DNA of 47,352 nucleotides from Roseinatronobacter alkalisoli (GTDB lineage: Bacteria; Pseudomonadota; Alphaproteobacteria; Rhodobacterales; Rhodobacteraceae): positions 1-47,352 of the forward strand of contig NZ_JAQZSM010000027.1 of the NCBI RefSeq assembly GCF_028745735.1, given 5' to 3'. This document shows, one piece after another, positions 133 to 14,966 of this stretch. Made by a program: the position numbers and the translations under genes. Within the stretch, counting starts at the first letter, position 1; every line of letters starts with the position of its first letter. A model generated the notes under the pieces. It saw only the letters and a program-made list of their open reading frames with translations, was not told the origin of the DNA and searched no databases.

Positions 133-209
133 CGCGGGGTGGAGCAGCCAGGTAGCTCGTCAGGCTCATAACCTGAAGGTCACAGGTTCAAATCCTGTCC
201 CCGCAACCA
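133..209 (+). tRNA. Initiator tRNA-Met (fMet, anticodon CAT)
   Basis: A complete 77-base cloverleaf can be folded by eye: acceptor CGCGGGG paired with CCCCGCA, anticodon stem TCAGG/CCTGA with loop CTCATAA (anticodon CAT), T arm ACAGG TTCAAAT CCTGT, and an encoded ACCA end. Position 1 C opposite A72 is an unpaired first acceptor pair, a hallmark of initiator tRNA. The gene is the target of the adjacent integrative element: its bases from the anticodon loop to the end recur at 14919-14966. The gene at this end is intact, so integration rebuilt a functional tRNA. Confidence 0.95.
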
Positions 210-212
210 AAA
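165..212 (+). repeat. attL: 48-bp direct repeat within tRNA-fMet
   Basis: This stretch, starting CTCATAACCTGAAGG and ending CGCAACCAAAA, is identical to 14919-14966. It starts exactly at the first base of the tRNA anticodon loop and ends three bases past the CCA. Direct repeats of a tRNA 3' half flanking a segment with an integrase are the classic trace of tyrosine-recombinase integration; the crossover is expected in the anticodon loop. The boundary is seen directly in the sequence; its role as attL is inferred. Confidence 0.92.
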
Positions 213-240
213 ATACACACATAATCAGATACTTACACCG

Positions 241-263
241 CCCGGCCCTCGCCGGGATTTCTT
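241..263 (+). terminator. Hairpin just inside attL, possible replacement terminator for tRNA-fMet
   Basis: CCCGGC, a four-base loop CCTC and GCCGGG form a perfect 6-bp GC hairpin followed by ATTTCTTG on the plus strand. It lies 32 bases after the tRNA, where the native rRNA-operon terminator was displaced by the insertion. The short T-rich tail makes it a weak to moderate terminator call. Confidence 0.45.
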
Positions 264-276
264 GCGTTCCGCCATC

Positions 277-296
277 GTGCGCCACTCGTGCGCCAC
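277..296. repeat. Two GTGCGCCAC repeats near attL (putative integrase arm sites)
   Basis: GTGCGCCAC occurs at 277-285 and 288-296, an 11-base period, followed by CGTGACGG. Three copies of the same 9-mer with 10-11 base spacing, followed by CGTGACCGG, lie near the other end at 14770-14799. Short repeats in the same orientation close to both att sites are what arm-type integrase binding sites look like. Binding by this integrase is inferred. Confidence 0.55.
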
Positions 297-332
297 CGTG
301 ACGGAAAACACACGCGCTTTGCACCTTCCCGG

Positions 333-1778
333 TCAAGCTATTAGTTCGTTGAACATAGCCTGTAACCGCGCATCAATAGCAGCCCTTTGCCCGTCAGCGA
401 TCAGATTGAGAAACTCCGTCACCTGTTCGTCTCCCAGCGCGAGCATGAAGCCTCGGCCATCCTGCGCGGCGTCGCGACAACGGGCGCAGAGACGGCCATA
501 GTTCTCGACTGTGCGGTACAGTAGCATACCTAGTTGTCCACGATTGACGGCAAAGCGGCCCGAGAGTTGGTCGAGTTCCGGATTGGCTAGGTCTTTGCTG
601 TAGTTCTTGCACTCGACCATGATCATTCGGGATGCGATGTTGTGCGCAGTGTGCGCCCGCCAGAAGAATCCACTCTGTGCCGCATTGGTATATATTATGT
701 CTATTCGCTTCCGCCCCTCGTGGATTTCCTGCTCTTTCTTTGGACAGATCAGGTTCGGCCAGAAAATGAATTCCAGTGCCCCCATGATGAACTTGTGGTA
801 GCGGTCGGCGTTCGCATTGCCCGGCGGTATCGACAGGAGGGTCTCAGCGAGCGCCTGAGCCAACAGCACCTCGTCAAACTCATCATCGAAGTCCTCATGA
901 CGAAGCGTCCCCTGTGCCCCTTCGAGTTCCGCATATAGGCGCTTGTATCGGTTCAACACCTCCGGGTGTTCCTCAGAAAATCGCGCTACAAAATCCTTCG
1001 AGAAGGGAAAGCGCTCTTTCAATGACTTCTTGGTCGGGGGGCGGCGGGTGCCATCGCGAAGGACGCGCACGAGGGGCGATCCTCGCTGCATCTCTTCCTC
1101 TTGAATGAAGTTCAGTATATGCTGTGAATAGAATTCCTGCGAGGTCAGTGCCATCTTCCTACGGACCGTGTATTTTGGCACGAGGATCAGGCGCTTCTGC
1201 GCAACAACGGGGAGCCGGACATAGTCGTGCCGCCAAGCTCCGGCGTCGATATCCCAATAGCGGCCCGAAGGATAGTCGCCTTGGAGATCGATGTCGTGCA
1301 GCGCGCATTGCTCTTGGGTGTATTTGATCAGCGGGTGGCGAATGATGTTCGTTGTGATATCCGAAATCTTGTCGCTGCCGATGCCGGGAACGAACAAGTC
1401 GCATTCAGCCAGTTCCTCGAGAAGACCGCTCTGAGCGGCCTGCGATGCCGCGAGGCTTTCATACAGATCAAACGCTTGCCGTCCGCCAACTCCTCGACCC
1501 GCAGGGGCACCTTGGGAAAGGCCAAGACAGGTTTCATTTGGCTCACGCAAGCCATTCAGCATCGCCCGCGCGCTGTCATCGCGCCCGGCTCGAATATGGT
1601 CGAGCGCAGTCTGGAAAAAATGGTTGATGTGCTGGTGGCACAGTTCCGACCATGCGTCGCCTTTTAGCGAAATAGCAAACGGGTCGATGAACAGCGGCAT
1701 GTCACTGTCCGGAGTAATGTCAACGAAGTCGAGTTGGGGCTGCTCAAGCCCTATTCCAAAAATTTCTGAAAACTTCAT
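333..1778 (-). CDS. PD-(D/E)XK nuclease-like protein downstream of the RM gene
   Basis: A 481-residue soluble protein I cannot assign to a named family. The C-terminal third has the parts of a PD-(D/E)XK nuclease fold: Glu336 in a helix, Asp360 in the strand RIDIIY, and Glu389-x-Lys391 in MVECKNYS, followed by Gln404. The N-terminal two thirds are of unknown type, with conserved-looking segments PLFIDPF (about residue 28) and LFVPGIGSDKISD (about 128-140). It follows the RM gene by 47 bases on the same strand and is probably cotranscribed. The start chosen is the ATG at 1778, two codons after a TTG; the ribosome site is weak. Location in a defence-type operon suggests DNA cleavage or sensing, but that is inference. 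Confidence 0.75.
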   Translation of the reverse strand: MKFSEIFGIGLEQPQLDFVDITPDSDMPLFIDPFAISLKGDAWSELCHQHINHFFQTALDHIRAGRDDSARAMLNGLREPNETCLGLSQGAPAGRGVGGRQAFDLYESLAASQAAQSGLLEELAECDLFVPGIGSDKISDITTNIIRHPLIKYTQEQCALHDIDLQGDYPSGRYWDIDAGAWRHDYVRLPVVAQKRLILVPKYTVRRKMALTSQEFYSQHILNFIQEEEMQRGSPLVRVLRDGTRRPPTKKSLKERFPFSKDFVARFSEEHPEVLNRYKRLYAELEGAQGTLRHEDFDDEFDEVLLAQALAETLLSIPPGNANADRYHKFIMGALEFIFWPNLICPKKEQEIHEGRKRIDIIYTNAAQSGFFWRAHTAHNIASRMIMVECKNYSKDLANPELDQLSGRFAVNRGQLGMLLYRTVENYGRLCARCRDAAQDGRGFMLALGDEQVTEFLNLIADGQRAAIDARLQAMFNELIA

Positions 1779-13464: not shown

Positions 13465-14731
13465 TTCCTGCACCCCTGCGCATCGGCTTGATCTCGGCGC
13501 TCCTGCCCCTGAGCGCGGCGTCGATCCGGTTCCCGACGGTATCCGCCGCCGCGCGGACGGGATCATCCGCGAGGTGTGCATAGCGTTGCGTCGTGGAAGG
13601 CTGACTATGGCCGAGGAGCTTGCCGATGACGGCGAGCGGGACGCCGCCGCCAGCCGCGACGCTGGCGTTCGTATGGCGCAGATCGTGCAGGCGGACATCG
13701 TCAAGCCCCGCATGGGCGCGGACGGCGTCCCACGGGCGTTTCAGATCGCTCCGGGGGCGGTCCCGGTCGCCGCCGGGGATGACCCAATCTGAAAGCCGTT
13801 CCAGATCCTCTAGGAGGGCAAGGGCAGGGGCGTTCAAGACTGCATACCTGCGACCGGTCTTCGTGTCGGCCAGCAGTGCGACCCCGCGCTCGAAGTCGAT
13901 CTCTGACCAGCGCAGGTGCAGCACCTCGCGCAGGCGCAGCCCGGTCAAGATCAGAAGGCGGATCGCGGCGACGGCATGGCGGTCGATGATCGTGCGCTGG
14001 TTCTCTTTCGGCGTGTGCTTGTTGTCGCTCACGCGCCACGGCAGGCCCTCGGTCTCGGCCAGCGCGAGGGTTTCCCCAAGCCGGGCCAGTTCCGCCGCAG
14101 AGAGAAACCTCTCGCGGGCATGTTCCTTGAATGCCGTGATGCCCGCCGCCGGATTGTGGCCCTTCTCGACCAGACCGCATGTCGCGGCGTATCTGAAAAT
14201 CGACCCGATGCATTCGATCAGCCTGTTCGCCGTGACAGGGCTGGTCTTCCCGACCTTCCGGTGGACACGCGCGACCTCGGAGGCCCCGATGGCGTCGAGC
14301 TTCGCCGTGCCAAGCGCCGGGAGGATGTGTTTCTTGATATAGCTGCGATAGTTCCTGACGGACGCCGGTTTCAGCTTCGTCTCGGCCTCCTCCTCAAGGT
14401 AGCGGGATGCGAAGTCGCGGAATAGCGGCATTTCCCGATCTGCCCGCCGGTCGGCGGCAGGATCAGCGCCAAGCCGGACGCGGGCGAGCAGTTCCTTGGC
14501 GCGCTCGCGGGCCTTCTCCGGGTTGAATTCCTCAGTCGTCCCGAGGTTGAGGCGCTTCTTCGCGACACTGCGCCCGCCAGCGCCGGGCCGGTATTCGATG
14601 AAATAGGTCATCCGCCCCGTCGGCTCGACCCGTAGGGCGAAGCCGGTCAGGGCGCTGTCGTAATAGACGACACGCTTGTCGGCGGGCTTGATGGCGGTCA
14701 TTCCCCGCCGGGTGAGCTTCGCAATCGGCAT
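13457..14731 (-). CDS. int: Tyrosine-type site-specific integrase
   Basis: A 424-residue tyrosine recombinase of the P4-like integrase type. The N-terminal arm-binding domain (about 1-80, DUF4102-like: LTRRGMTAIKPADKRVVYYD) is followed by a core-binding SAM-like domain (FRDFASRYLEEEAETKLKPA) and a catalytic domain with the Arg of TGLRLREVLHLRW, the HDLRHT box and the tyrosine in LGHSQPSTTQRYAHL. The ATG at 14731 has GAGGGGAAC upstream and gives the usual family N-terminus; a 30-residue extension in frame would be translated from the repeat region and is unlikely. It lies 190 bases from the right att repeat, at the end away from the intact tRNA. Confidence 0.93.
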   Translation of the reverse strand: MPIAKLTRRGMTAIKPADKRVVYYDSALTGFALRVEPTGRMTYFIEYRPGAGGRSVAKKRLNLGTTEEFNPEKARERAKELLARVRLGADPAADRRADREMPLFRDFASRYLEEEAETKLKPASVRNYRSYIKKHILPALGTAKLDAIGASEVARVHRKVGKTSPVTANRLIECIGSIFRYAATCGLVEKGHNPAAGITAFKEHARERFLSAAELARLGETLALAETEGLPWRVSDNKHTPKENQRTIIDRHAVAAIRLLILTGLRLREVLHLRWSEIDFERGVALLADTKTGRRYAVLNAPALALLEDLERLSDWVIPGGDRDRPRSDLKRPWDAVRAHAGLDDVRLHDLRHTNASVAAGGGVPLAVIGKLLGHSQPSTTQRYAHLADDPVRAAADTVGNRIDAALRGRSAEIKPMRRGAGNA

Positions 14732-14769
14732 CCTGTTCCCCTCGATCCGCAGCCCCTTGAGGGGCCTTT

Positions 14770-14799
14770 GTGCGCCACCGTGCGCCACCTGTGCGCCAC
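14770..14799. repeat. Three GTGCGCCAC repeats near attR (putative integrase arm sites)
   Basis: GTGCGCCAC occurs at 14770-14778, 14780-14788 and 14791-14799, then CGTGACCGG. The same 9-mer occurs twice with the same downstream CGTGAC at 277-302 near attL. The copies lie between the integrase start and attR, also in position to allow integrase to control its own promoter. Confidence 0.55.
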
Positions 14800-14834
14800 C
14801 GTGACCGGCATAACGTGGCATAACTTGGGGCGAA

Positions 14835-14861
14835 GCTATACAAAAACAAACTGGATATCAA
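14835..14861 (-). promoter_or_regulatory. int: Possible integrase promoter
   Basis: On the minus strand TTGATA (14856-14861) and TATAGC (14835-14840) lie 15 bases apart in an AT-rich patch about 105-130 bases upstream of the integrase start. The spacer is two bases short of ideal, so this is a weak call. Confidence 0.3.
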
Positions 14862-14918
14862 TTACATATGCTATGTTCTGGAAAGGTTCGGAAACACCGG
14901 AAACGACCGCTCATATAT

Positions 14919-14966
14919 CTCATAACCTGAAGGTCACAGGTTCAAATCCTGTCCCCGCAACCAAAA
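14919..14966 (+). repeat. attR: 48-bp direct repeat of the tRNA-fMet 3' half
   Basis: This is an exact copy of 165-212. No tRNA 5' half precedes it, so it is a remnant and not a second tRNA gene. The native rRNA-operon terminator follows 25 bases later, showing that this is the original chromosomal 3' flank of the tRNA. Confidence 0.92.

Follow-up and report, generated by a model that had tools for sequence, protein, structure and literature searches.

A probable cos-packaged phage satellite with its own small terminase in Roseinatronobacter alkalisoli, and related elements in other bacteria

Phage satellites have been studied best in Gram-positive cocci and gammaproteobacteria. Here we describe an island in the alphaproteobacterium Roseinatronobacter alkalisoli (NCBI RefSeq assembly GCF_028745735.1, a 4.84-Mb draft genome) which, on sequence evidence, is probably a cos-packaged phage satellite. 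The stretch analysed, hereafter the window, comprises positions 1-47352 of contig NZ_JAQZSM010000027.1. Packaging strategies set out for satellites include use of the helper terminase at a cos site (P4 and some Staphylococcus aureus pathogenicity islands, SaPIs), an own small terminase subunit (TerS) acting at a pac site (other SaPIs), the helper TerS together with Rpp at cos (proteobacterial phage-inducible chromosomal islands, PICIs), and a full set of own genes (capsid-forming PICIs, cf-PICIs) (PMC10690885). The island carries its own TerS beside its own cos without a large terminase subunit (TerL), and this combination is none of the strategies laid out in that source.

The island spans positions 165-14966, about 14.75-14.8 kb, and is flanked by perfect 48-bp direct repeats of the 3' part of tRNA-fMet. 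The left repeat, attL (165-212, plus strand), and the right repeat, attR (14919-14966, plus strand), which is the displaced 3' part of the tRNA, are identical at 48 of 48 nt; a 24-nt core of the repeat occurs twice in the window, with no third copy, where shuffles lead one to expect 0.00. The window begins in the apparent end of a 5S rRNA gene, which adjoins the integration target, tRNA-fMet (CAT) (133-209, plus strand). ARAGORN places position 165 at the first base of the 7-nt anticodon loop, exactly where a sequence-only reading of this DNA had put the start of the repeat. An uninterrupted site is found in a genome of the same genus (G774, locus L058), which matches the 5S-tRNA-fMet sequence at 89% over 209 bp and in which the tRNA-fMet is followed directly by a homologue of the right flank of the window (72.5% over 280 bp). 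The boundary given by this empty site is thus that of the 48-bp repeats. A second tRNA-fMet copy in the host genome (C90, L055) is also uninterrupted, with similar sequence behind it (90% over 96 bp).

A tyrosine integrase gene lies at the right end of the island (13457-14731, minus strand; Phage_integrase 1.4e-23, phrog_1 1.8e-63), its start falling more plausibly at 14731 than at 14821. Candidate integrase arm sites are present at both ends, with GTGCGCCAC at 277 and 288 on the left (270-302, plus strand) and at 14770, 14780 and 14791 on the right (14770-14805, plus strand). The 33-bp stretch 270-302 matches 14773-14805 at 91%. GTGCGCCAC has six copies in the 47-kb window, with 0.94 expected window-wide, and five of the six lie in the island ends, at a spacing of 10-11 bp. 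Relatives of the integrase at E<=1e-30 were found in 4 of 37 genomes of the genus, host included.

From the right end, the integrase is followed by an open reading frame (ORF) without a family match, an AlpA-like helix-turn-helix (HTH) gene, a gene for a 313-aa protein, an O-like initiator gene (rep), genes for a 241-aa protein, a 102-aa protein, a DUF6074 protein and a 174-aa protein, terS, a 51-aa ORF, genes for 315-aa and 160-aa proteins, a type IIG/ISP restriction-modification gene and a PDC-M36A-like gene. All of these are on the minus strand. The AlpA-like regulator or excisionase (12376-12618) matches HTH_17 (2.2e-7) and phrog_66 (4.5e-6), and the 313-aa protein (11438-12379) is the signature protein of the family of elements described below. 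The replication initiator, Rep (10479-11438), is lambda-O-like (phrog_270 1.2e-37); it matches O-like, replication initiation and primosomal families, with no primase family among its Pfam and PHROGs matches. In lambda the origin lies within the O gene. The island's rep contains seven palindromic iterons, GCYCACNCTNGTGGGC (10974-11156, plus strand; pattern search), which form a candidate origin; this 16-bp palindrome, a pattern derived from these same seven copies, is expected 0.04 times in the window.

The small terminase gene, terS (7948-8454, minus strand, 168 aa), is Nu1-like (phrog_57 3.4e-15) and scores 6.7e-48 with a phage-only TerS profile; its closest homologues found are phage TerS proteins, at 53-55%. 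The integrase, AlpA-like, O-like and Nu1-like assignments of the sequence-only reading are borne out by family matches, and its placement of these genes on one strand holds. Directly upstream of terS, within the 169-bp gap that separates it from the gene for the 174-aa protein, is a lambda-type cos site (8491-8597, minus strand). The parts of the lambda cos site are cosQ, cosN and cosB (PMC6092414). In the island we recognise a cosQ-like block, AGGTACCT, a cosN-like block, GCGGCGC, and a T-run, where we infer which block is cosQ and which cosN; the order, cosQ-like, cosN-like and then terS, is that of lambda. Presence of rep with iterons and of terS with cos fits the earlier suggestion that the island has its own replication and packaging functions. 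That reading had noted neither the cos site, nor the iterons, nor the arm-type repeats, and had left the cargo unnamed.

Within the 169-bp gap, 37 bp match a prophage, L024, at 89%, and comparable places in TerL-bearing phages share one layout, consisting of a C-run, an AGGKACC or GGGTCCC block, a GCGG block and a T-run. A cos profile was built from eight such phage sites (L005, L034, L033, L020, L021, L022, L024 and L025), with satellites excluded, and run on the window and ten loci. It gave E=2.2e-16 for L023, 3.1e-13 for the window, 9.4e-9 for L032, 1.6e-5 for L035 and 0.012 for L019, the next matches being at 0.95 (a second place in L023) and 2.7 (L063). Because the phage regions had been picked after the window's match to L024, leave-out runs were done. 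Without L024 the window cos scores 37.3 bits (E=2.8e-10), against a maximum of 9.3 bits among 100 dinucleotide-shuffled versions of the island; with a profile of four distant phages the window cos has E=1.6e-9 and that of L019 1.1e-4. Two of three profiles also aligned across the lambda cos junction (E=0.0062 and 5.7e-4 in 1.1 kb); in these alignments the junction falls at the GCGG block, and the AGGKACC block pairs with GGGTCC of lambda.

PHROGs (ten ORFs) and Pfam (the same ORFs plus eight more) revealed no capsid, portal, tail or TerL family in the island, and tblastn searches of the whole window with the corresponding phage proteins gave no match either, as expected from the sequence-only reading. 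The island thus shows the general features of a satellite: an integrase with its own att sites, a cos and terS recognised by their sequence, and no virion or motor genes. Since it has its own rep, cos and TerS but no genes for a shell or a motor, it most likely travels in the particles of a helper.

We propose that AlpA, presumably switched on by a helper phage, would prompt the integrase to excise the island at the 48-bp repeats of tRNA-fMet, much as AlpA acts in the induction and excision described for EcCICFT073 and PICMI (PMC6092414, PMC10803314). The resulting circle would replicate with its own lambda-O-like initiator from the iterons inside rep, using the helicase and polymerase of the host. 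A lambda-like helper would supply a GpA-type TerL, portal, head and tail. Because the island brings its own TerS beside its own cos, its Nu1-like TerS and the GpA-type TerL of the helper would form a hybrid terminase that cuts and packages island DNA at the island cos. Since no head-size gene was detected in the window member, full heads may take up its DNA as a multimer. Alternatively, the 174-aa protein that adjoins cos (8624-9148, minus strand) may be a head-size factor; single-sequence AlphaFold2 (AF2) predicts for its last 154 aa a long helix and a C-terminal helix (pLDDT 71.6), a profile of Nu3-like scaffolds does not match it, and a scaffold function would be only a guess.

Searches with the 313-aa family revealed sister elements. 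A profile built from four members (the window, L019 of genome G051, L023 of G353 and L032 of Shinella sp. PSBB067) was run on 16 sequences and finds ten elements, of which six lie outside the profile (L093, L092, L041, L095, L094 and L035; E 2e-15 to 3e-30). Four further 313-aa-like matches (L042, L043, L044 and L046) were excluded because of a short contig, a weak match or an unlike context. The nine sisters come from the host's family, from Shinella and from other bacteria. The protein has about 310 aa in the window and in Shinella; for L019 and L023 the alignment covers a C-terminal part of ~195 aa, which there follows a separate gene for an apparent coiled coil. Of the excluded loci, L046 (IMGVR_UViG_3300042890_005834) is part of a viral contig of 16.3 kb; this stretch has the C-terminus of a 313-aa-family protein, a match to a capsid protein and an apparent integrase ORF, and may be a packaged member of the lineage.

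The cos site is present in nine of the ten elements (weakly in L019), and no TerL or portal match was found in any of the ten within the stretches fetched. TerS is encoded in four (window, L019, L023 and L032), with a weak match in L092 (0.006). A phage-only profile detects a Nu3-like scaffold in six (L023 1e-20, L093 8e-20, L095 3e-17, L092 2e-12, L032 1e-11 and L019 3e-9), fused to a protease in L032 and L093, and has no match in the window, L035, L041 or L094. L019 carries a gpD-like decoration gene and two TerS genes, which lie close together behind it (11702-13062), and L023 has a neck protein gene. L035 encodes a neck protein and a tape measure 53% identical to that of Shinella; an ORF resembling a prohead protease lies near its right edge, and no right end of the element was identified. 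The Shinella element encodes a protease-scaffold, a major capsid protein, a tape measure and a tail protein; with TerS and cos besides, it could possibly remodel both head and tail length. Its ends are marked by 49-bp repeats (98%) at a tRNA-Arg (L032 2504-16996, 14.4 kb), those of L041 in G708 by 44-bp perfect repeats (11.7 kb) and those of L023 in G353 by 19-bp repeats at tRNA-Glu (12.3 kb). Eight ORFs in the rep position were compared. Iterons are clear in three (window, L019 and L023), two-copy repeats occur in two (L093 and L041) and none in three (L092, L035 and L032); in L092, L032, L035 and L041 the ORF was assigned to rep from its position or from a reading of its sequence, and that of L092 has no PHROGs match. 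About 0.7 kb behind the cos of the G142 element, L095, repeats occupy 8163-8967, among them a unit of about 47 bp in six copies and longer units.

A second cos model, R1, made from 12 sites, was used to scan 394 genomes of the host's family at E<=1e-4 with stricter filters; as the window site is part of R1, its own score there is no evidence. R1 matched 17 places in 15 of the 394 genomes, namely seven sites in the model, one known prophage (G237:C8, L022) and nine new places, eight of which fall under E=0.001 with the phage-only profile (L099, 0.15). Three of the nine have TerL and portal genes behind the site (L098, L099 and L100). Four (L092, L093, L094 and L095) lie beside a relative of the 313-aa protein, and the stretches fetched show neither TerL nor portal matches, an absence that says little for L094, since this is only a 7.3-kb contig. 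The other two, L096 and L097, match no query and were not counted as satellites; near their sites (9760 and 9707, respectively) are an O-acetyltransferase gene and a helicase gene, without a terminase or 313-aa match. In the other 36 genomes of the genus no place reaches 0.001 with R1.

These comparisons suggest a lineage built on the 313-aa signature and a lambda-type cos, whose members would swap the genes next to cos and thereby hijack different steps of one helper type. The steps would be terminase specificity (TerS), head size (a Nu3-like scaffold, often stand-alone), head stability (a gpD-like protein), the shell (a capsid protein) and tail length (a tape measure). The window member would take terminase specificity alone, its cos-TerS pair recoding the GpA motor of the helper. 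We favour this wider scheme slightly over its negation.

The island might instead be a decayed lambda-like prophage in which int, rep, cos and terS happened to survive the loss of the head, tail and TerL genes, an explanation that we regard as unlikely. Its packaging piece does point to a phage source: besides cos and a TerS whose nearest homologues are phage-borne, the 51-aa ORF just after terS (7774-7929, minus strand) weakly matches a profile made from the N-termini of 11 phage TerL proteins (E=0.0028 in a set of 14 sequences; L023 scores 6.6e-6) and is a possible TerL scar. Yet the 313-aa gene is shared by ten elements, not all of them from the host's family, and neither TerL nor portal was found in the stretches examined; the genes, iterons and att structures of the island are intact, its repeats are perfect, and intact cargo stands where late genes would be. 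Nor are relatives always embedded in full prophages. TerS relatives (E<=1e-7) occupy 14 places in 13 of the 394 family genomes, and 11 are beside TerL, but the window, G051 and G353 are not; together with the empty site, this supports the earlier reading of an alphaproteobacterial satellite. The TerS tree settles neither one nor several captures, since the satellites require four changes and a single clade is not rejected (p-AU, from the approximately unbiased test, 0.098; long branches).

It is quite improbable, in our view, that the island serves defence and owes its movement solely to its integrase (or to conjugation), terS and cos being functionless passengers. Elements of that appearance do exist at the same tRNA-fMet, which in G776 and G803 is occupied by other integrase elements (L063 and L064; integrases 33% identical) with large unrelated genes and no terS match, no cos and no rep match by tblastn, although an L063 ORF (1505-2530) nonetheless reads like an O-type protein. 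In the island, however, terS and cos are both present, in the lambda order, and no relaxase or conjugation family was found among the island proteins scanned with Pfam and NCBIfam. The large genes of L063 (3995-16616; 2471 and 878 aa) and L064 (12650-19373; 477 and 690 aa) are possibly unnamed defence systems. Finally, a headful satellite whose cos-like sequence is a TerS-binding remnant, on the pattern of those SaPIs that pair their own TerS with pac sites (PMC6092414, PMC10690885), is the least credible alternative, because the site has cosQ-like and cosN-like blocks and matches the sites of phages with GpA-type terminases.

Several observations weigh against the reading of the island as a cos-packaged satellite and against the lineage drawn around it. 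Excision, a circular form and particles are predictions from the sequence. At the window cos no cosB was identified. Selection of the phage cos regions relied on gene position and visual judgement and followed the discovery of the window-L024 match, and the comparison with lambda is weak, the four-phage profile giving no match at the lambda cos. Among the sisters, the L019 cos is weak with the eight-phage profile (E=0.012), that of L041 is absent, and element ends were not found for L019, L035 and L092-L095. The exact form of the window was seen once; a single-sequence query with the 313-aa protein matches 2 of 394 family genomes, host included, and an alignment query 5 of 385 class genomes, host included, of which G750 and G432 looked unlike the family on inspection. 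No capsid-size gene was detected in the window member. In the host assembly there is no second cos of the island's type (the next-best place has E=0.106 with R1) and no GpA-type TerL. The assembly has two Terminase_6-type TerL genes (C98 and C59), which indicate that other phage-like or gene-transfer-agent genes are resident in the host.

The whole genomes of eight sisters (that of L035, G051, G353, G283, G182, G142, G708 and G381, but not Shinella) were scanned for TerL. GpA-type TerL was found in G051 and G381, on contigs other than that of the element, which in G381 is the 7.3-kb contig. Seven of the eight genomes have a Terminase_6-type TerL, on other contigs or >100 kb away, and the genome of L035 has neither type. 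In G381 a lambda-like prophage, L025, and the element L094 have the same cos type and constitute a candidate helper-satellite pair.

The cargo zone at the left end of the island may protect the host. A restriction enzyme-methyltransferase of type IIG/ISP (1826-5197, minus strand, 1123 aa) is full length relative to its model (PADLOC E=0, 1126.9 bits; Pfam Type_ISP_C 1.8e-68). Next to it is the 483-aa PDC-M36A-like protein (333-1784, minus strand), which matches its PADLOC model at 3.6e-34 over residues 4-231 and has no Pfam or NCBIfam match and no PDB match under E=0.1; towards its C-terminus it may contain a PD-(D/E)XK nuclease. Both would shield the host from other phages. Between this pair and terS lie the genes for the 160-aa protein (6001-6483, minus strand), which reads as a small membrane protein and has no family match above cut-off, and the 315-aa protein (6485-7432, minus strand), with no family match above cut-off and no PDB match under E=0.1. 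A defence partner role for the 160-aa protein is a guess, and the two adjacent genes (6001-7432) are a possible two-gene defence system.

Among the remaining island genes, the 241-aa protein (9766-10491, minus strand) overlaps the end of rep and is, by position only, a possible helicase loader. It matches phrog_4627 (0.0035), has no relatives in single-sequence searches of genome contigs and viral contigs, and its AF2 model is uninformative (pLDDT 41). The 102-aa protein (9439-9747, minus strand) has no Pfam or PHROGs match, and the DUF6074 protein (9135-9455, minus strand) is recognised by Pfam (2e-8). The ORF downstream of int (12727-13456, minus strand) has no family match and an unsure start; as called mechanically (12727-13713) it overlaps int. 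Sequence past attR is older than the island, since similar sequence is found behind tRNA-fMet in relatives of the same genus. Just past attR is a 72-aa ORF (14979-15197) with no family match above cut-off, which resembles the C-terminus of a serine recombinase. An IS21-type istA/istB element at about 18170-20680 of the window shares 91% identity with a counterpart on a Roseicitreum antarcticum plasmid; this element, shared with plasmids of marine Rhodobacterales, gives the best near matches of the remaining contig.

Our best reading is that the elements form an alphaproteobacterial satellite lineage that looks new and was not found in print. No alphaproteobacterial satellite family is described in the titles and opening abstracts of the literature searched, a coverage outside which many journals lie. 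VEIMEs and Tycheposons are marine satellite families (PMC11389934). We do not claim priority, because VEIMEs could overlap with the lineage. With the cos profile and the 313-aa family as two searchable marks, it becomes possible to catalogue the lineage together with its helpers and to test the predicted hybrid terminase with purified proteins. The sisters, moreover, form a natural series in which one can ask what single captured gene alters head size or tail length.

The island resembles several known systems in part. Like P4 it would be a cos-packaged satellite (PMC10690885), but its initiator and signature genes differ from those of P4-like satellites and PLE, and neither the P4 alpha primase-helicase nor Sid/Psu has a match among the island proteins scanned. 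With PICMI, which is helper-dependent and protects its host, it shares int and alpA (PMC10803314), whereas the PICMI prototype has six genes, among them a primase, and a terminase goes unmentioned in the main text of that paper (PMC10803314). The Shinella sister, with its protease-scaffold and major capsid protein, recalls the cf-PICIs (PMC10690885, PMC11389934). As presented in those sources, however, cf-PICIs encode the head set, both terminases and HNH, whereas the elements here have no TerL or portal match, and the window member has TerS but not the rest of the set of own capsid, portal, TerS and TerL that marks cf-PICIs. Putative tape-measure genes like those of some sisters are reported for PLE-like elements and cf-PICIs (PMC12987554, Extended Data Fig. 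10 legend), so this part of a satellite is not new in kind.

TerS-bearing SaPIs and Gram-positive PICIs are alike in having their own small terminase without a large one and in redirecting the motor of the helper (PMC6092414, PMC10690885). SaPI TerS is described as acting on pac sites, whereas that of the island is Nu1-like and adjoins a lambda-type cos (PMC6092414, PMC10690885); where a SaPI would have pac, a cos-type site was found, and no Stl-type repressor was recognised among the island genes. Closest in plan is EcCICFT073, which likewise has an integrase, AlpA, its own replication module, a cos-type packaging site and cargo possibly resisting phages (PMC6092414). According to the same source, EcCICFT073 has a Pri-Rep initiator and no TerS, and relies on the helper TerS at cosN sites without the phage cosB (PMC6092414), whereas the island has an O-like initiator and its own Nu1-like TerS adjoining cos. 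Of the marks of Gram-negative PICIs it therefore has the integrase and AlpA, but not Pri-Rep, nor the absence of an own TerS. The sequence-only reading had taken its gene set to define PICIs; we do not accept this, because a cos and an own TerS without TerL differ from the PICI types described in these sources, and the island has not earned the PICI label. With a cos-based lineage present in both Rhizobiales and the host's family, satellites would be known from another large group of bacteria, and an own TerS-cos pair would be a further way of taking over a terminase.

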